From NCBI GenBank assembly GCA_903833215.1, contig CAILEM010000103.1, positions 1-32,863 on the forward strand: a DNA stretch of 32,863 nt, written 5' to 3'. Shown one piece after another: positions 15,699 to 23,685 of this stretch. The stretch's first letter is position 1; each line of letters starts with the position of its first letter. Source of the stretch: an uncultured Armatimonadota bacterium. Lineage in GTDB: Bacteria > Armatimonadota > Fimbriimonadia > Fimbriimonadales > Fimbriimonadaceae. Under the pieces are notes generated by a model, which was given only the letters and a program-made list of their open reading frames with translations, was not told the origin of the DNA and searched no databases. The position numbers and the translations under genes are program-made.

Positions 15699-17606
15699 TC
15701 AAATGACGGAAACTCCAACAAGTTTCAACGCTTCCGAGACGATGTTTTCGACGGATAAGCCACATTCTTTTCGAATGACAGCGACCGAACCTTGTTCGAT
15801 GAATTGATCGGGAATAGCCAGAATGGAGTGGGCAATATGTCCCAACCCTGCATCGTGCAGGGCGGACCGCACGGCTTGGCCAAATCCTCCCGATGCGGCG
15901 TTCTCTTCGATCGTGATGAGTCTTCCTGTGTCCGCCGCCGCTTGACAGACCGTCTTGGCGTCGAGTGGCTTCACAAATCGTGCGTTGATGACGGTACAGG
16001 CAATGCCACGCTTTTCAAGCGTCTGAGCAGCTTCCCAGGCCAGGCTAACCATCGATCCAACCGCGCACAGAGTGATTGATTCGGCCGCTATATTTGAGGC
16101 GCGACTCAAGACCTCCGCAATACCCGCTGTAATCGGCGTACGTGCCTCTGGCAGGCGATCATCGCCAGCACCCCGAGGATAACGCACGGCAGTGGGATGA
16201 TCGTTGTATTCGGCCATCCAGTGCGTCATTTCACGGAGTTCGGTGGTGTCTCTCGGGGCAAGCAATACCATATTTGGCATCATCGTGAGATACGAAATAT
16301 CAAAGGCTCCGTGGTGGGTTGGGCCATCGTCTCCTACCAACCCAGCTCGATCCATAAAGAACCGCACAGGCAAGTTCTGGATGCAAACGTCGTGAAGCAC
16401 CTGATCGAATCCACGCTGAAGGAAAGTGGAATAGATCGCGCAGAACGGTTTGTAGCCACTCGCCGCCATGCCTGCTGCAAATGTAACGGCGTGCTGTTCG
16501 GCGATGCCTGTGTCGAAATAGCGTTTCGGAAAGACATGCTGGAATTTCGTCAGTCCCGTGCCGTCCGGCATCGCCGCCGTAATGGCGACAACCGTGGGAT
16601 CCGCTTCCGCAGCCTCAATGGCGGCATCGCCAAATGCTTGAGTAAAGGTGATCGGTCCGGCCGCCTTCACCATGTCGTTGGATTCGAGATCGAACGGAAC
16701 GACTCCATGCCATTTTCGCGAGTCTTCCTCCGCAACCTGATAGCCCTTGCCTTTGACAGTGATGGCATGAACGAACACCGGATAGTCCAGTTCGCGGATA
16801 TTCCGGAAGACCTCAAGCAGCGTTGGTAGATCGTGCCCATTCACAGGGCCGATATATTCGAAGCCCATCTCTTCGAAGATCGTGCCGGTTTCTTCAGGAG
16901 CCATGTAATGGGTGATTCCGTGGCGGAATCCCGCTGCCATTCGCGTCACCGGGTCCGGCATCATCTGGACGACAGATTTGGCTTTGCGTGCCAGATTCTG
17001 CAATTCGGGGCGTGATCGCAGTTTGGAGAGATAATTCGTGAGTGCGCCGACGTTTGGAGCGATCGACATGCGGTTGTCGTTCAAGACGACGGTGATATCG
17101 GTTTGCATCTCACCGGCGTGATTGAGGGCTTCCCAACTCATTCCAGATGCGATGGCAGCATCTCCTGTCACGGCGATAACTTTTTCCTTGCCTCCCCGCA
17201 AGTCACGCGCCGCCGCAAAACCCAGAGCAGCCGAAATCGCGGTTCCGGCATGACCGGCACCGAAGTAGTCGAGCTCGTGCTCGTCCCGCTTAAGAAACCC
17301 ACTGAGACCTTTGTGCTTGCGCAGTGAATCAAATTGACTGAGCCGCCCCGTGAGCATCTTATGGGCATATGCCTGGTGGCCGGTATCCCAAACAACCACA
17401 TCGGGGGGCAGGGAATGGGTCGCGTACATGGCCACAGTTAGCTCGACGGTGCCGAGGTTCGAGCTGAAGTGTCCGCCGGTCTTGCTGACCTGTTCCAGGA
17501 TAGCGCTGCGTACCTCATCAACGACCTCTTGGAGCTCTTTGTCCGTCAGGCTGTGCAGGTCATTCGGGCTTACGATCTTTGACAGGTGTTTGTAGGCGCT
17601 TTCCAT
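15699..17606 (-). CDS. dxs: 1-deoxy-D-xylulose-5-phosphate synthase
   Basis: DXS condenses pyruvate and glyceraldehyde 3-phosphate using thiamine diphosphate, the first step of the MEP isoprenoid pathway. At 635 residues it has normal length. Seen motifs are SSNLGTVELTVA (48-59), DTGHQAYAHKMLTGR (74-88), the ThDP motif from GDAAIASG (148-155) to NDNRMSIAPNVG (176-187), FEYIGPVNGHD, the transketolase-like pyrimidine domain with DRAGLVGDDGPTHHG and GIAEQHAVTFAAGMA, and the C-terminal swivel domain. The ThDP motif has GDA where many relatives have GDG, a substitution that also occurs in other phyla. It is transcribed alone. No perfect TANNNT box or ribosome site precedes the ATG; the minus strand carries GATTAAAT 5 nt before it. 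Confidence 0.97.
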   Translation of the reverse strand: MESAYKHLSKIVSPNDLHSLTDKELQEVVDEVRSAILEQVSKTGGHFSSNLGTVELTVAMYATHSLPPDVVVWDTGHQAYAHKMLTGRLSQFDSLRKHKGLSGFLKRDEHELDYFGAGHAGTAISAALGFAAARDLRGGKEKVIAVTGDAAIASGMSWEALNHAGEMQTDITVVLNDNRMSIAPNVGALTNYLSKLRSRPELQNLARKAKSVVQMMPDPVTRMAAGFRHGITHYMAPEETGTIFEEMGFEYIGPVNGHDLPTLLEVFRNIRELDYPVFVHAITVKGKGYQVAEEDSRKWHGVVPFDLESNDMVKAAGPITFTQAFGDAAIEAAEADPTVVAITAAMPDGTGLTKFQHVFPKRYFDTGIAEQHAVTFAAGMAASGYKPFCAIYSTFLQRGFDQVLHDVCIQNLPVRFFMDRAGLVGDDGPTHHGAFDISYLTMMPNMVLLAPRDTTELREMTHWMAEYNDHPTAVRYPRGAGDDRLPEARTPITAGIAEVLSRASNIAAESITLCAVGSMVSLAWEAAQTLEKRGIACTVINARFVKPLDAKTVCQAAADTGRLITIEENAASGGFGQAVRSALHDAGLGHIAHSILAIPDQFIEQGSVAVIRKECGLSVENIVSEALKLVGVSVI

Positions 17607-17832: not shown

Positions 17833-18267
17833 ATGGCAACCGAACCGAAAACAATCCTCCTGGTTGAGGACAATGCTGATGACGAACAACTGACTCTCCG
17901 CGCAATGCGGCAGAGTGAGATCCCTAACATCATCCGTGTCGCCAGAGACGGGGCGGAAGCGATTGAATGTCTTTTCGGGCCGGACGCTGGAAAACTCCCT
18001 GACCTCGTACTCCTTGATCTGAAATTACCTAAGATTAGTGGACTCGAAGTCCTCCAGAGAATTCGAAGCGAAGATCAGTCGAGGGGCCTTCCGGTTGTGA
18101 TCCTGACGTCGTCCGACGAAGAGCGGGATATCGTTAAGAGCTATAACCTCGGTGCCAATTCCTACATCCGAAAACCAGTCGATTTCGATGAGTTCATCGA
18201 CGCCGTCCGACAGCTCGGCCTCTACTGGCTCCTAATGAACCGAACCCGACGCGGATTCGAGTCTTAG
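17833..18267 (+). CDS. Single-domain response regulator, Rcp1-like
   Basis: The 144-aa protein is a lone CheY-fold receiver domain without an output domain. The acidic pocket is ED (12-13), the phosphorylated residue is Asp62 (LVLLDLKLPKISG), Thr92 lies in VVILTSS, and Lys114 is in RKPVDFDEF. The forms VEDNADDEQL and DLKLPKISGLEVLQRIR are those of the Rcp1 group, which usually take phosphate from phytochrome-like or PAS histidine kinases. The PAS kinase at 2994-4439 has a matching H-box but lies 13 kb away, so pairing is only a suggestion. TAGGCT lies 4 nt before the ATG, and there is no ribosome site. Confidence 0.93.
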   Translation: MATEPKTILLVEDNADDEQLTLRAMRQSEIPNIIRVARDGAEAIECLFGPDAGKLPDLVLLDLKLPKISGLEVLQRIRSEDQSRGLPVVILTSSDEERDIVKSYNLGANSYIRKPVDFDEFIDAVRQLGLYWLLMNRTRRGFES

Positions 18268-18284
18268 CCTTCGTCAGTCGGCAT

Positions 18285-18338
18285 CACCCGCCAACGCCTT
18301 CCCCCAGCACCCGTTATTGACGTCTACGTGGCGTCGTG
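18285..18338 (-). repeat. Tandem repeat, copy 1 (most divergent)
   Basis: First of three head-to-tail copies. It contains CACCCGCCAACGC (18285-18297) and then AGCACCCGTTATTGACGTCT and CGTGGCGTCGTG (18306-18338). It matches copies 2 and 3 over both halves with several changes. Strand is assigned relative to the inverted fourth copy and is arbitrary. Confidence 0.7.
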
Positions 18339-18345
18339 GCCGCAC

Positions 18346-18397
18346 CACCCGCCAACGCTTTCCACCAGCCGCCGTAGTCGACGTCTCCGTGGCGTCG
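18346..18397 (-). repeat. Tandem repeat, copy 2
   Basis: It contains CACCCGCCAACGC (18346-18358) and, after TTTCCACC, a 31-bp block from AGCCGCCGTAGTCGAC to GTGGCGTCG (18367-18397) that is identical in copy 3. It lies 61 nt after copy 1. Confidence 0.8.
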
Positions 18398-18417
18398 TGC
18401 TCGCTGGTATCGGGCAT

Positions 18418-18469
18418 CGCCCGCCAACGCTTTCGAAAAGCCGCCGTAGTCGACGTCTCCGTGGCGTCG
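18418..18469 (-). repeat. Tandem repeat, copy 3
   Basis: It contains CGCCCGCCAACGC (18418-18430) and the same 31-bp block as copy 2 (18439-18469), 72 nt further on. The core of the block, GTCGAC and neighbouring bases, is partly palindromic. Confidence 0.8.
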
Positions 18470-18871: not shown

Positions 18872-19768
18872 CTATCCGGGCCCAATGCTGTCGTGCCAGG
18901 CTCGAAGCGCTTCGCCAGGCGTCATGGACGTTGGCGGCAATAGCTCATATACCGGAACGCCTTCCCAAAGGCGCTTGTCGAAGCCGCCGTCTCGGGCCTC
19001 AAATAGCGCCTTCGGTGCGCCAAAACGGTCGCCTTCGGTGGTCAGATCTCCGAGCAACACGGTCTGGCACAAGGTCAGCAAGAACCGCTCTGCGTCGAGT
19101 TGGTCATCTTCTAAGAGGTTGATGATTTCGTATTCAGGCAGCGCGAACTTCTGCATGCCGAGCGTGTAGGCATGAATGCCATCGGTTCGAAGCTCGAACT
19201 TGATATCGATATGTTCACGCACATCGATAAGAGGATCGAATCGCGATTCCATGAGGACTTTCTCAGGGAGCTGATATCTTTGGGAGATCGAGTCGGCCAC
19301 AACTCCATCCGAAAGCTGGGCCATTCGCACGGCAATTCCCAAGAAGAAATCTAGAGCCGGGTACACCATCGGATCGTGCGATTCGAAGACAAGCTGGGCA
19401 ATGGTCCACGTTGCGCGAATCCGTACGAGCAATTCGGGATCGCGACCGATCGCCAGCGAACTGTTCGCATAGGTATCAGGATCGTAGAGCGCCTCTTCTT
19501 TGCTCATCACGATCATTTTTAACAGCGTTTTGCGGTCTTTCGAGGCGATCACATAGCCACCTCGCTTCATCGGCTGAAGGAGAACCGCTTTTTCACCAGA
19601 ACCTTCTAGTGGTACCCCCAATCCTACGACGGCTCCGCCGATTCCAGCTGGGTTCGCGATCTCGGCAATTGCGGGGAGAACCGACTTGGAAGACAGGATG
19701 GTCAGGTAGTAACCCTTGCTAATTCCGAAGCCAGGTGTTTTAGGTTTTGAAAAGGGCCATCCACGCAT
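18872..19768 (-). CDS. Third gene of HTTM operon; unknown, resembles DUF4261
   Basis: The 298-aa protein has no signal peptide or membrane segment and is probably cytoplasmic. The part around residues 200-260 (GIHAYTLGMQKFALPEYEII, then a Leu-rich helix and TTEGDRFGAPKALFEA) resembles the C-terminal part of DUF4261 proteins, where a 'Y-T-x-G-x-x-x-F' strand is followed by a 'P-E-x-E-I' helix. This is a by-eye likeness and could be wrong. Its start is certain: GGAGAGG (19777-19783) lies 8 nt before ATG 19768, and the upstream HTTM gene stops 2 nt before it. It is thus the last gene of a three-gene operon, which suggests a joint role with the membrane proteins. Confidence 0.7.
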   Translation of the reverse strand: MRGWPFSKPKTPGFGISKGYYLTILSSKSVLPAIAEIANPAGIGGAVVGLGVPLEGSGEKAVLLQPMKRGGYVIASKDRKTLLKMIVMSKEEALYDPDTYANSSLAIGRDPELLVRIRATWTIAQLVFESHDPMVYPALDFFLGIAVRMAQLSDGVVADSISQRYQLPEKVLMESRFDPLIDVREHIDIKFELRTDGIHAYTLGMQKFALPEYEIINLLEDDQLDAERFLLTLCQTVLLGDLTTEGDRFGAPKALFEARDGGFDKRLWEGVPVYELLPPTSMTPGEALRAWHDSIGPG

Positions 19769-19770
19769 TT

Positions 19771-21108
19771 TTATTGCCTCTCCGGTGAGGTGTCCTCAGT
19801 CTGCTGCAAACCGACTTCGGACTGCAAGCTCGGTTCCGTCGCGCTCATCAAGATTCTATCCCACACTCCCGGCACCCAACCGACAACCCACAGCCCGACT
19901 CCTCTTGTCTTGAGCGCTTTCCCGACAGACAACGGCTTCTTCTCGAAATCAGTCGCAGTCCAGTTGGGTGACGTACCGCTTGCGAAGCTGACGAACTGAA
20001 ACGGATCGATGGCTCCAAGGAATCCAATCGCCGACGGCTTGAGTTGGAGCCCAATCGGAAGGCACACGTTGACTTTGAACTTCTGTAGTCGGTTGCCCAC
20101 TCGGGACGCCCAGGCCGAAACTTCGTCACCATCATAGAAACACAAGTAGGTCGTCACCATCAAGTAAGAGAACAAAGGGATGTTCATCGAATACTCGATG
20201 TGGGCATGCAAAAGCACGCCAGACAGGAGGACATAGCGTCGAAGTGGCTTGAAGAAGACGAGTGTTCCCAGTGCGAATTCGATGAAGAGCGTGCCGTAGG
20301 TCGTGTAATAGACCATCGGAAAGTCATTGATCGCGCTCGGTTCAGGAAAGCGAAAGAACTCGGCGAGTCGGGCGGGGTAGTAAGTTGCCGTTCCATCCTG
20401 CCACGTGTTTCCACCCCATTTGAGCCAAACGGTGGTGATGTACAGAAGGGCGACGTTTGCCGATATCAAGCGCTGGGGCCACATCGACACCATGACTTGT
20501 GCTGACGAGACGCGGCCTTTCCAGAGGGCGATGACGCGGTCGAAGGAGCACGCGGCACCGCTCGGTGCAATCGCCAGATACATCGCGGAAAGGCGCATGA
20601 CCGAATCTCCACCGTGGAGGATCGCCGCATTCCGATGATGCAGGGAGATGATCCCCAACGCAAACAGAATCGAACTGACGCGGGTCCACAGTCCGAGCGC
20701 GGTCAAGATTCCTGCCAGAACGGTCAAGAGGTAGAAGATAAGCGTAATGCGCGGGTCCGTGATGCCATTGATCAGGCCAATTCTAGGTAGCGACCAATCC
20801 GTGCCGAATCCAACTTCGATCCGGGAGCCAATGTATCTGGCTCCTAACCAAGCTGGAACAAATCCACGCTCACTGAACCAGGCATCCCAGTCCAGAAACA
20901 CCATCAAAAGCGAGATGACCGTGAGGGTGCAAATGATGATGCGAAACAGACCAAGGGCGGTGGGGGAACCGAATCCAAACCAATAGCTGTCGATGGTTTG
21001 CAGAGTGTCTTTGATGATCCCGACAGGAGGCTCTTCTGGAGGCGTCTCAATGACATCAACAAGGTCTTCTGGCTCGACCGCCAGATCAGGAGCTTGGATG
21101 TCGCTCAA
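19771..21108 (-). CDS. HTTM domain (vitamin K-dependent carboxylase-like) membrane protein
   Basis: The 445-aa integral membrane protein carries the horizontally transferred transmembrane (HTTM) domain shared with vitamin K-dependent gamma-carboxylase. After a 35-residue acidic cytoplasmic start, GLFRIIICTLTVISLLMVFL opens the first helix. IISLHHRNAAILHGGDSVMR (about 153-172) is the family hallmark, and about seven hydrophobic helices run to residue 330, including TTVWLKWGGNTWQDGTATYY and LLHAHIEYSMNIPLFSYLM. A 110-residue soluble tail follows. Bacterial HTTM proteins have no established reaction. The start is TTG (21106-21108), overlapping the TGA of the upstream gene as TTGA, with GAGGAA 9 nt before it. 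Its partners are the 207-aa and 298-aa genes. Confidence 0.88.
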   Translation of the reverse strand: MSDIQAPDLAVEPEDLVDVIETPPEEPPVGIIKDTLQTIDSYWFGFGSPTALGLFRIIICTLTVISLLMVFLDWDAWFSERGFVPAWLGARYIGSRIEVGFGTDWSLPRIGLINGITDPRITLIFYLLTVLAGILTALGLWTRVSSILFALGIISLHHRNAAILHGGDSVMRLSAMYLAIAPSGAACSFDRVIALWKGRVSSAQVMVSMWPQRLISANVALLYITTVWLKWGGNTWQDGTATYYPARLAEFFRFPEPSAINDFPMVYYTTYGTLFIEFALGTLVFFKPLRRYVLLSGVLLHAHIEYSMNIPLFSYLMVTTYLCFYDGDEVSAWASRVGNRLQKFKVNVCLPIGLQLKPSAIGFLGAIDPFQFVSFASGTSPNWTATDFEKKPLSVGKALKTRGVGLWVVGWVPGVWDRILMSATEPSLQSEVGLQQTEDTSPERQ

Positions 21109-21728
21109 AGCGGTTGGTTCCTCAGCCTCGCCAGTTCCTTCTGCTCGACAACGTACGTGAAGAAATTCTCACTGGTGTATTCCTCTCGCTGACGTCCGCC
21201 CGGAGGTGCGATGGGACGGGTGTGGCGGTACAGCTTGACCATCATCGGCGGATTCTTGGGGTTATCGTTGAGCAGCGCCACCCGCAAGCCAAAGCTTGGC
21301 CAAAGGTAGACAAAATCGTCACTTCCCGCCCGTTCGTAGAACTTTCGGTATCGCTCCTTCAAGAATTTCTGCGGGATCGGAAGCTCAAACATACGTGGAT
21401 AGGCATAGCGTTTGGTGGACCCATCCCGAAACACGACCTGTGCGTCACCCCATTTATCGACGCGCAATGGATCTGGGGCAAACATATCCCAGTACTGCCA
21501 GAAGCCAGTGACGAGGAGATAATCGCTGACAGGAGCGGAGTGTTTGACGTATTTGTCGTCCCAATAGCAGATCCAATCCGTGCCTCCAGGCAAGACTTGG
21601 CGGCTTTTAATTGCGGCTCGCGGTTCTGGGATCGACCATGCTGTGATGGCGATCATGTGAAACAGCACGAATAACTTGACCCACGCGCTTACTTTTCTGC
21701 GCTGAGGCTCTGGGGGCGGGCTGATCAC
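21105..21728 (-). CDS. HTTM-associated single-pass membrane protein
   Basis: The 207-aa protein has one N-terminal membrane segment (WVKLFVLFHMIAITAWSI, about 16-33) followed by an extracytoplasmic domain. The stretch FWQYWDMFAPDPLRVDKW and the charged WGDAQVVFRDGSTKRYAYPR are of a kind I associate with small proteins encoded beside HTTM genes; no enzymatic motif is visible. The start is GTG at 21726-21728 with no clear ribosome site or TANNNT box. Its TGA overlaps the TTG of the HTTM gene. It is the first gene of the operon, just after the strong terminator of the TPR gene. Confidence 0.72.
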   Translation of the reverse strand: MISPPPEPQRRKVSAWVKLFVLFHMIAITAWSIPEPRAAIKSRQVLPGGTDWICYWDDKYVKHSAPVSDYLLVTGFWQYWDMFAPDPLRVDKWGDAQVVFRDGSTKRYAYPRMFELPIPQKFLKERYRKFYERAGSDDFVYLWPSFGLRVALLNDNPKNPPMMVKLYRHTRPIAPPGGRQREEYTSENFFTYVVEQKELARLRNQPL

Positions 21729-21804: not shown

Positions 21805-23640
21805 TTACTGCTCGATTTCAGCCAAGACTGGCTCGAGTTCTTCGTTCGGCCCGACGGCTTCTCGAATTCTCTTCGCCAATTCTCGTGCCTCATCTCGATG
21901 ACCGGCTCGCTTGGCAGCGAGGGCAAGGTTGATGTGGATCGGCAGCGAGTTAGGATTGTGGGTTGCCGCGTACTGCATCAGGTTGTACGCGTCGTCATTC
22001 TTGCCTTGGCCGTGCAATGCAGTCACAAGCTCGCCAAAGGCGGGCTCGCAGCCTGGGTAGAGCTCAAGCAGGCGTCTTGAAGCATCTTCTGCCTCTGTCC
22101 ACTGCTCAGTACGGTTGTAGGCCGATGCCAGCAAAGCCCACAGCTTCCAGTAGTCGGCAAGCCAGTTGCGCAGGGGCTTGAGGAAGCTGATCGCGCCAAG
22201 GAAGTCATCGCCTTCCATCTTCTCACGGGCTGCCTCAACGTTCTGAACACGCTTTGGTTGCTCAAGCTCGATCAAGCGAGCCATTGCCTGGGCGCGCGTG
22301 TTCGGGTCTGGGTTGCTTGCGAGAATGTCCTTCATGACCTGAGGAACTTCGAACTCACGACCAGCCGCTTCCAAAGTCTGTGCATACTCGGTGAGAACTG
22401 CGATGTCGTTTGGTGCGATGTCGAGGACGTCCTCATAGAAGTCCATCGCACGATCGAGATCGCCTTTCTTCATCAGCCAAGGCGCGTAGTAGCGCTTGAC
22501 CACGGTGTTGTCCTCAAGAAGTTCAAGCGCGGTCTCAAAAGCGCGCTCGGCGTCATCCTCTTTGCCTGCTTGGAAGAGCGCAACCGCGTACTTCGAGTGG
22601 GCAGGGCCGTTCTGAGGATGCTCGTCGATGACGCCTTTCCAAAGTGGTGGAATCTCGTGAGGGCGGTTGGTTTGACCAAGAACCATGGCAAGGAGATCAC
22701 CAGTTGGTTTGTCTTCGCCTTCCATCACGAACGCCTTTCGGAAGTTTCTTTCCGCGTTGATCGGCATTCCGAGTTGGAGCTGGACCGAGCCCAATCGGGA
22801 GTAGATCGCAGGATCGGACTCTTCGAGGCTCAGCGCCTTTTCGTAGTACTCAGCCGCTTTCGTGAGGCTGTTTACTGCTTGATGAATCTCACCGAGAGCG
22901 AAGAAGCCCATGAACTGGTCGGGGACGAGTTCGGTCAACTTCAGAAGTGCAGCATCGATGATTTCAAACGTGCCGATGCGGTAGTGGGCGCATGCGCGCG
23001 TGATCTGAACGAGTACTTGGTAGGGACCTACGAAGTTCTTGTCTGCTTCCACTGCGGCAAGCAACGCGTCAATCGCTGGCTGTGGCGAGAACTCGATGGC
23101 TACCATTCCGTTGGCCTGCTGAATATAGCTGAGGCTGTCGTACCCTTCCAAGAAGTCGAGGAACGCCTGGGCATGGTCGGTTCCAAACTCCATCGTATCG
23201 CCGGCAAGGAATTCGGGGACCTCGACTTCGCCTTGGGCAGCCAGTAGCTTGATCAGCTTTTGGAGCTGGACGAAGATTTCGGACGTCGGGAAGGTGATGG
23301 ATTCCAGATAAACCGGCTCTTCCTGATCCTTCTTCGTGAACCGAACCGTCATGTCGAACGTGTCGCCGGTCTGGCTGAGCGTTCCATCCATCACGAGTTC
23401 GACTTCCGCCTGTTCGAAAAGCTCTTTGAGCTGCTCGTAAGGCAAAAGGTTCTCGGCGATATTCACGTACGCCATACGTGTGGTGCCGTCTTGCTCTTGA
23501 ATCTGAGTGAGGTAGCTAACGGTATTGAAATCTGCCTCAGCATGAGCCCGCAATTGCTCGGATGCGAATCCGGCGAACTGACGGCCGTGGGCAGGTTTTG
23601 TCCCTTCTGCAGCGTTGAAGGGAAGGACGGCAACTTTCAT
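21805..23640 (-). CDS. Large TPR protein with TolB/CsgG-like N-terminal domain
   Basis: The protein has 611 residues from ATG 23640. The first 130 residues begin MKVAVLPFNAAEG and include a beta/alpha pattern with VELVMDGTLSQTGDTFDMTV, as in the TolB-like or FlgO/CsgG-like 'VAVLPF' domains often placed before TPRs in bacterial signalling proteins. From about 215 onward there are around eight to ten tetratricopeptide repeats (for example AAEYYEKALSLEESDPAIYS, AERAFETALELLEDNTVV, AMDFYEDVLDIAPNDIAVLT, AYNLMQYAATHNPNSLPIHI). There is no signal peptide, so it is a cytoplasmic scaffold; the partner is unknown. A longer reading from GTG 23664 exists, but TAAACT ending 7 nt before 23640 and the conserved MKVAVLPF start favour the shorter form. 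It ends in a strong terminator. Confidence 0.88.
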   Translation of the reverse strand: MKVAVLPFNAAEGTKPAHGRQFAGFASEQLRAHAEADFNTVSYLTQIQEQDGTTRMAYVNIAENLLPYEQLKELFEQAEVELVMDGTLSQTGDTFDMTVRFTKKDQEEPVYLESITFPTSEIFVQLQKLIKLLAAQGEVEVPEFLAGDTMEFGTDHAQAFLDFLEGYDSLSYIQQANGMVAIEFSPQPAIDALLAAVEADKNFVGPYQVLVQITRACAHYRIGTFEIIDAALLKLTELVPDQFMGFFALGEIHQAVNSLTKAAEYYEKALSLEESDPAIYSRLGSVQLQLGMPINAERNFRKAFVMEGEDKPTGDLLAMVLGQTNRPHEIPPLWKGVIDEHPQNGPAHSKYAVALFQAGKEDDAERAFETALELLEDNTVVKRYYAPWLMKKGDLDRAMDFYEDVLDIAPNDIAVLTEYAQTLEAAGREFEVPQVMKDILASNPDPNTRAQAMARLIELEQPKRVQNVEAAREKMEGDDFLGAISFLKPLRNWLADYWKLWALLASAYNRTEQWTEAEDASRRLLELYPGCEPAFGELVTALHGQGKNDDAYNLMQYAATHNPNSLPIHINLALAAKRAGHRDEARELAKRIREAVGPNEELEPVLAEIEQ

Positions 23641-23647
23641 GAAAGGC

Positions 23648-23653
23648 AGTTTA
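23648..23653 (-). promoter_or_regulatory. Candidate -10 box (TAAACT) for the TPR gene
   Basis: TAAACT on the minus strand ends 7 nt before ATG 23640 and lies inside the longer reading frame from 23664, which it argues against. It fills the 45-nt gap after tdh. Confidence 0.5.
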
Positions 23654-23685
23654 CCGGGCAGCACCCTTGTGCTGTTCGATCCTGA

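Follow-up and report, generated by a model that had tools for sequence, protein, structure and literature searches.

The p207–HTTM gene pair of an uncultured member of the Fimbriimonadaceae: a proposed two-chain, menaquinol-driven enzyme with a GGCX-like fold

Organization of the locus

The DNA analyzed here, called the window, is a stretch of 32,863 nucleotides (nt), positions 1 to 32,863 of contig CAILEM010000103.1 (assembly GCA_903833215.1), from an uncultured bacterium of the family Fimbriimonadaceae, phylum Armatimonadota. Three consecutive genes on its minus strand, p207, HTTM and p298, are the subject of this report. The first two are proposed to encode the two chains of one menaquinol-driven enzyme with the fold of human GGCX, the vitamin K-dependent gamma-glutamyl carboxylase by which clotting proteins are activated. 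p207 (21728-21105, 207 amino acids (aa), GTG start) is followed by HTTM (21108-19771, 445 aa, TTG start), the start codon of which sits inside a 4-nt TTGA overlap with the p207 stop codon. After a gap of 2 nt comes p298 (19768-18872, 298 aa, ATG start). The genes, the overlap and the gap are thus as given in a first-pass annotation of this DNA, which described the products as a single-pass membrane protein, an HTTM protein and a soluble DUF4261-like protein.

A simple hydropathy scan found one hydrophobic segment in p207 (residues 13-31; 21636..21692), none in p298 and only three in HTTM. HTTM matches PF05090 with 42.9 bits (E 5.7e-11; cut-off 27.7), and all 30 aligned members of its family match at E up to 1. 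The descriptions of p207 and HTTM hold. For p298 the word soluble stands, but the profile of DUF4261 (PF14080) gives only a trace (E 0.076, 13.5 bits, cut-off 27); DUF4261 is touched by 14 of 33 aligned p298 members, best E 3.1e-4. p207 scores 19.3 bits with DUF5819 (PF19136), below the cut-off of 27.1, and 26 of 30 aligned p207 homologues touch this family (best E 7e-5). Searches of PDB sequences with the p207 profile (A1) and the p298 profile (A3) returned chance-level matches only.

Conservation of the gene pair

Genomes were sampled across the phylum of the window (n = 251), 59 of them from its own family. In all 58 genomes with matches to both p207 and HTTM, the two genes are adjacent and on the same strand. 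Within the family the pair is present in 51 of 59 genomes, with one copy of each gene, and p298 in 56 of 59. Among the nearest 61 genomes, p207 and HTTM occur in the identical 35 genomes, and p298 in 45. Of the 51 family genomes having both HTTM and p298, 42 have them side by side and nine have p298 at another place. It also occurs without the pair in five genomes of the family and in five that belong to other families within the order, where one of the matches is weak. In one genome lacking the pair (G011), a TPR gene is followed after 4 nt by p298, as if the pair had been cleanly lost. The firm unit is the pair of p207 and HTTM; p298 is a frequent neighbor that is separable and not part of the core. 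The first-pass annotation had treated the three genes as locked together and had named a conserved soluble partner of HTTM as a lead. A conserved partner exists, but the firm one is the single-pass p207 and not p298. Absence of co-occurrence in other genomes, which the annotation gave as the finding that would speak against its operon, applies in part to p298.

The counts for p298 are based on 61 of the 66 genomes with a match to its profile. G071, G086, G089, G099 and G138, with weak partial matches only (E 1.8e-8 to 2.5e-4), were excluded, and where another genome had a second, weaker match this was not counted either; the likewise weak match in G038 (E 2.5e-10) was kept. Three genomes with p207 and no PF05090 match (G154, G072 and G134) carry fusions, recognized with profiles A2 or A4. 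Four genomes have a PF05090 match and no p207 match: the fusion profile is matched by G099 and G181, a partial p207 match lies at a contig end in G236, and G194 fits neither the p207 profile A1 nor the fusion profile A4.

Natural fusions

In another family of the phylum (f17), 10 of 12 genomes match a fusion profile in which HTTM comes first and a p207-like domain follows in a single chain; two of the ten matches (G160 and G181) are broken off by contig ends. With hhalign, p207 was matched to the fused C-terminal domain at 97.2% and HTTM to the fused N-terminal part at 99.9%. A scan of genome contigs with the fusion profile confirmed 212 relatives, and the best 80 were kept. Apart from L181 and L190, which end earlier, these best 80 loci reach position 495 or beyond of the 529-position profile (78 loci). 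Their record titles include haloarchaea, cyanobacteria, Verrucomicrobia, Omnitrophota, Myxococcota, Armatimonadota and others. A motif resembling WxMF lies past residue 300 in 68 of the best 80, although the pattern was loose and some of its matches fall inside the HTTM part. In view of the fusions and their distribution, the relation of p207 to HTTM is therefore widespread and physical, and no accident of a local operon. From the same best 80, 53 loci were hand-picked among the near-complete matches to form alignment A9. A few fused homologues also match LMF1 (lipase maturation factor) weakly, 2 of 6 in alignment A4 (best E 5.1e-4) and 3 of 53 in A9 (best E 3.3e-4), hinting at a wider superfamily.

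Predicted fold

The natural fusion L173 (515 residues) was modeled with the 53-row alignment, and its predicted structure has a pLDDT of 93.0 and a pTM of 0.91. When the model was searched with Foldseek, all 15 matches at E <=0.001 were GGCX, with TM-scores of 0.44-0.51 on the query. Comparison with VIA gave Z scores of 14.8-23.1 for 16 GGCX entries, and the next, unrelated row had a Z score of 7.1. The best row places model residues 3-502 on GGCX 31-491, with 387 residues aligned at a root-mean-square deviation (rmsd) of 6.1; the output of VIA consists of residue ranges, not residue pairs. By this comparison the fused homologue has the core fold of GGCX. The alignment ends at GGCX 483-491, so that the second propeptide-binding lobe and the arch of GGCX are without a counterpart, and p207 carries no further domain that could match GGCX beyond about residue 490. 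HTTM profile A2 also matches GGCX by sequence (E 1.3e-5); the window HTTM alone, searched against PDB sequences, found nothing.

The p207-like part of L173 starts near the helix at model residues 340-361. On this model p207 most likely supplies the ninth transmembrane helix (TM9), the quinone-contacting linker between the transmembrane domain and the propeptide-binding domain, and the first luminal lobe, and HTTM most likely supplies the helices before TM9. Carried over by homology to the two chains of the window, the hydrophobic segment of p207 would be the equivalent of GGCX TM9.

Active-site residues

Lys230 of the window HTTM (codon 20419..20421, minus strand) is invariant. All 30 HTTMs of the family have it, as do all 18 of a broad set (the phylum of the window together with Actinomycetota, Bacillota, Bacteroidota and haloarchaea) and all 53 aligned single-chain proteins. 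In three MAFFT alignments it falls on Lys218, the catalytic base of GGCX, and in a HMMER alignment on Lys217. The equivalents of GGCX W223, H287 and F299 are W236, H301 and F313 of the window HTTM. Each is present in 30 of 30 family members, and they are kept in 17, 18 and 16 of the 18 broad-set HTTMs and in 37, 48 and 49 of the 53 fusions, respectively.

In p207, residues W80, M82 and F83 occur in 30 of 30 homologues and D81 in 29 of 30; the stretch W80-D81-M82-F83 (21480..21491, minus strand) was aligned with GGCX W399-D400-M401-M402. In the fusions the corresponding W, M and F are present in 51, 42 and 51 of 53. The assignment of this stretch to the linker was made because of its position together with its motif. 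M401 has two roles in the GGCX cryo-EM work: with W223 it lines the naphthoquinone pocket, and with M402 it belongs to the wall that separates the quinone pocket from the glutamate pocket (PMC12589487).

The residues for glutamate are different. N159 and H160 hold the substrate glutamate in GGCX. N159 corresponds to Gly166 of the window HTTM (25 G and 5 S among the 30 family members) and H160 to Gly167 (29 G among the 30), so the glutamate-binding residues are not kept. Both glycines lie within a conserved G-G-D motif of the family HTTMs, and because they replace the glutamate-binding residues the substrate is probably not a peptide glutamate.

Menaquinone supply

A marker of a menaquinone route (a gene for MqnA/D or MenD, the latter looked for in 10 genomes) was found in 33 of 35 HTTM-bearing relatives, and menaquinone should be available to hosts of the pair. 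Neither marker searched for was found in G006 (77% complete) or G010 (98% complete), both of which have HTTM. VKOR was considered as a linked recycling partner and dropped, since it is present in 60 of 61 relatives and thus uninformative.

Proposed enzyme

The preferred reading, held at a probability of roughly 65%, is that p207 and HTTM are two chains of one menaquinol-driven enzyme of GGCX fold that acts on an extracytoplasmic substrate other than glutamate, with p298 as an accessory protein. Its computed support is the pairing, the natural fusion, the fold of the fused homologue, the invariant lysine and the conserved linker motif. For the fusion-like assembly of the split pair, its membrane topology, quinol binding, chemistry and substrate class, and for the role of p298, we infer the following scheme. 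The cut between the chains would lie in the cytosolic loop before the ninth helix. HTTM, the putative catalytic subunit, would provide the helices before TM9 and carry the base Lys230; p207, the putative second subunit, would contribute TM9, close the quinone pocket with its W-D-M-F linker and form a small extracytoplasmic domain. Menaquinol would bind between the two proteins and be deprotonated by Lys230, and O2 would turn it into the epoxide. The strong base so formed would remove an unactivated C-H proton of the extracytoplasmic substrate, probably something other than a peptide glutamate. p298 would be a cytosolic accessory or regulator.

Several points weigh against this scheme. The fold evidence comes from a distant fused homologue and not from the window's own chains, and this model deviates considerably from GGCX (rmsd 5.9-6.5 over 311-396 residues). 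Searches of PDB sequences with fusion profiles A4 and A7 found nothing, GGCX included. The hydropathy of HTTM shows no more than its three segments, so the helix count leans on the GGCX match. In a HMMER alignment Lys230 falls on GGCX Lys217, one residue off the catalytic Lys218 by a one-residue gap. The linker match is weak by sequence alone (hhalign 13.9% with p207 and 0.1% with the fusion profile), and MAFFT misplaced the linker motif when run with A7. As to the cofactor, G010 is nearly complete and has HTTM, yet lacks the menaquinone-route markers searched for, and relatives lacking the pair carry these markers no less often, so they speak for availability only.

p298 and the tail of HTTM

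The predicted structure of p298 (pLDDT 93.1) has two alpha/beta parts. In VIA, residues 159-286 resembled the SUFU homologue 3k5j with Z 9.3 and rmsd 3.2 over 113 residues, and the next rows had Z scores of 7.1 and 6.5; Foldseek gave no match at E <=0.001 with the p298 model. p298 would be located in the cytosol, at a distance from the proposed active site, and a regulatory role or binding to the tail of HTTM is possible, on slender evidence. This C-terminal tail (residues 334-445; 19774..20109, minus strand) is longer than 60 aa in 22 of 30 homologues. Its position suggested a degenerate DCC1-like (PF04134) domain, but that candidate was rejected: the tail has no Pfam match and no CxxC, and hhalign with a DCC1-like set, run with 21 of the 22 long tails (L046 left out), gave 7.7%. 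The weak colinearity with this set may still reflect distant descent from it.

Upstream hairpin and neighboring genes

A TPR protein gene (21805-23664, minus strand, 619 aa) is the upstream neighbor of p207. In the 76 nt between them lies a terminator-like hairpin (21796-21761, minus strand) of 16 pairs, 10 of them G-C, with a T-rich tail on the minus strand. The first-pass annotation had taken a 15-bp terminator to insulate the operon. The hairpin is there, but insulation is not conserved. Among 30 loci, 22 have a TPR gene upstream of p207 and on its strand. In 12 of these 22 the gap, with start codons picked by script, is from -20 to +20 nt, and in 5 of the 22, the window included, a stem of at least 10 pairs occurs between the two genes. 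The terminator is therefore a local feature. The TPR gene keeps its place upstream of p207 even in loci whose p298 lies elsewhere, and in G011 it stands before p298. It may be part of the same unit.

On the other side, a response regulator gene (17833-18267, plus strand) and dxs (15699-17606, minus strand) flank p298 in several relatives of the window, as found by blast. Between the response regulator gene and p298, a 56-nt repeat occurs in three direct copies (18281-18469; 84-100% alike).

Related gene pairs on plasmids

A plasmid survey gave 19 matches in 16 distinct records, of which 15 regions were opened (H8 was left out). DUF5819 lies directly upstream of HTTM in seven of the 15. The other eight comprise one SdpA-SdpB locus, four archaeal single-chain proteins and three regions without a named partner. 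These three come from Hymenobacter, where an unnamed gene of 168 aa lies upstream, from Novosphingobium, and from Streptomyces, where a fragment of HTTM lies next to an IS3 transposase. A tblastn search of the plasmids with p207 gave no match. In hhalign, p207 reached 92.5% with a set in which seven of the nine proteins are DUF5819, the other two being an SdpA and a protein without a name. By sequence, p207 is a relative of DUF5819 and not a member of it, and the DUF5819-HTTM pairs look like the same split as p207-HTTM. Identification of p207 as SdpA (PF17418) was tried and rejected, as there is no Pfam match and hhalign with one SdpA sequence gave 1.1%.

Genes of 110-119 aa without a Pfam match stand just before DUF5819-HTTM on three plasmids (L106:1294-1626, L109:1270-1629 and L112:1290-1649); they are possible substrate peptides. 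On a Rhodococcus plasmid (L110:556-3289), SdpI, an unnamed 231-aa gene, SdpA and SdpB follow in a row. A C-terminal DCC1-like thiol-disulfide domain is carried by the HTTMs of three loci of the window's phylum (L087, L089 and L090, of families f26 and f20) and by one Virgibacillus plasmid HTTM.

Alternative explanations

The automatic label of HTTM genes would make the pair a true glutamate carboxylase producing Gla residues. The GGCX-like fold of the fusion model agrees with this, and GO:0017187 is attached to plasmid HTTM genes by electronic inference. Against it stand the glycine or serine in place of N159 (30 of 30 at position 166) and the glycine in place of H160, as well as the end of the model's alignment at about GGCX 490, short of the second propeptide-binding lobe and the arch; we hold it to be very improbable. 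In a system for thiol-disulfide exchange, HTTM would be a quinone-linked redox protein and DCC1-like proteins would be its partners. This explanation draws on the DCC1-like domains of the f26 and f20 HTTMs (E 3.5e-16 to 3.7e-21 in three), on DCC1-like/DUF393 genes near DUF5819-HTTM pairs and on the one Virgibacillus HTTM annotated as DCC1-like. The window HTTM has no DCC1 match and a tail lacking CxxC, and the conserved residue set is built on a lysine and not on cysteines, which leaves this explanation improbable.

A peptide-toxin maturation system like SdpA-SdpB or YitP-YitO, processing a small secreted bacteriocin precursor, is also unlikely. The window HTTM does touch the SdpB model (TIGR04033, E 1.7e-7), the order of small partner and HTTM recurs in the Rhodococcus locus with SdpA, SdpB and SdpI, and a 110-119-aa gene precedes DUF5819 in the three plasmid loci named above. 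The SdpB score is however 31.2 bits with a cut-off of 178.4, and p207 is not supported as SdpA by the comparison with one SdpA sequence. The 76 nt between the TPR gene and p207 hold no space for a precursor gene, and the presence of the pair as one copy each in 51 of the 59 sampled family genomes is unlike a variable bacteriocin locus. What this explanation names is a substrate class, and it is compatible with GGCX-like chemistry. A single complex of all three genes, with p298 bound to the cytosolic tail of HTTM and needed for function, appears doubtful. Apart from the frequent adjacency of p298 and HTTM in the family, a tail longer than 60 aa and adjacency of p298 coincide in 28 of 30 loci (21 with both and 7 with neither; Fisher p 3e-5). 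The seven loci with neither form one clade (support 0.85), so that this is close to a single event and the Fisher p is overstated, and coupling of tail and p298 was set aside as a candidate on that account, striking as the count is. There are exceptions both ways (L060 has a linked p298 and a short tail, L041 a tail and no linkage), and p298 occurs without the pair both within the family and in other families.

Significance

HTTM proteins are common, and some bear an automatic glutamate carboxylation label. The statement of the first-pass annotation that no activity is settled for them remains valid, although a specific enzymatic model can now be proposed. The model names a second subunit, one lysine, one linker motif, a cofactor (menaquinol) and a product (menaquinone epoxide), and it argues that the glutamate label does not fit the HTTM family of the window. 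Should half of the active site belong to the small partner, assays with HTTM only would be expected to fail. What appears to be new is the identification of the small partner as a missing part of the GGCX fold and of the quinone pocket; among the open-access papers searched, preprints not included, none was found that describes p207 or DUF5819 as part of a GGCX-like enzyme.

A wider proposal is tentative, and we regard it as possible rather than probable. HTTM and its small partners (p207, DUF5819 and possibly SdpA) would form one ancient and widespread class of quinol-driven strong-base enzymes, in which a module of helix plus WxMF linker, separate or fused, completes the quinone pocket. Vitamin K-dependent glutamate carboxylation would have arisen later as a specialization, in which a glutamate pocket and the remainder of the propeptide-binding part were gained. 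The active site of the window pair would lie between two gene products. If true, the model would bear on the origin of the human clotting-factor carboxylase and on the role of HTTM in the maturation of peptide toxins.

Comparison with known systems

Membership in GGCX is not claimed for the window pair, since tests for the glutamate pocket and for the outer part found no correspondence; nor is membership in SdpB, SdpA or DUF5819. The likeness to human GGCX lies in the fold of the fused homologue over TM1-9, the linker and the first luminal lobe, in the equivalents of W223, H287 and F299 and a lysine aligned with Lys218 or Lys217, depending on the aligner, throughout the family of the window, and in the W-D-M linker motif. 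Unlike GGCX, the enzyme of the window would have two chains and not one; N159 and H160 are not kept, and nothing matches beyond about residue 490.

The peptide systems are more distant. SdpA-SdpB and YitP-YitO are described as toxin operons of Bacillus subtilis (PMC6818787). They resemble the pair in combining a small partner with an HTTM-type protein, in the gene order seen in Rhodococcus and in the touch of the SdpB model; they differ in that the window HTTM is far under the SdpB cut-off, p207 has no support as SdpA and no toxin gene lies beside the window pair. CrdG of the corynaridin (linaridin) cluster is likewise an HTTM protein, reported as presumably involved in peptide maturation by an unclear mechanism (PMC9927463).

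The DUF5819-HTTM pairs on plasmids of Streptomyces, Bacillus, Macrococcus and Virgibacillus share with the window a small single-pass gene directly upstream of HTTM, whereas p207 is below the DUF5819 cut-off and extends further in its C-terminal region, where it has a conserved RYRK stretch of its own. The single-chain HTTM proteins of about 500 aa from haloarchaea and many bacterial phyla are fused and have little sequence identity with the proteins of the window (about 18-19% over HTTM), but they combine HTTM with a p207-like C-terminal domain and have the same lysine and a linker of the WxMF type.

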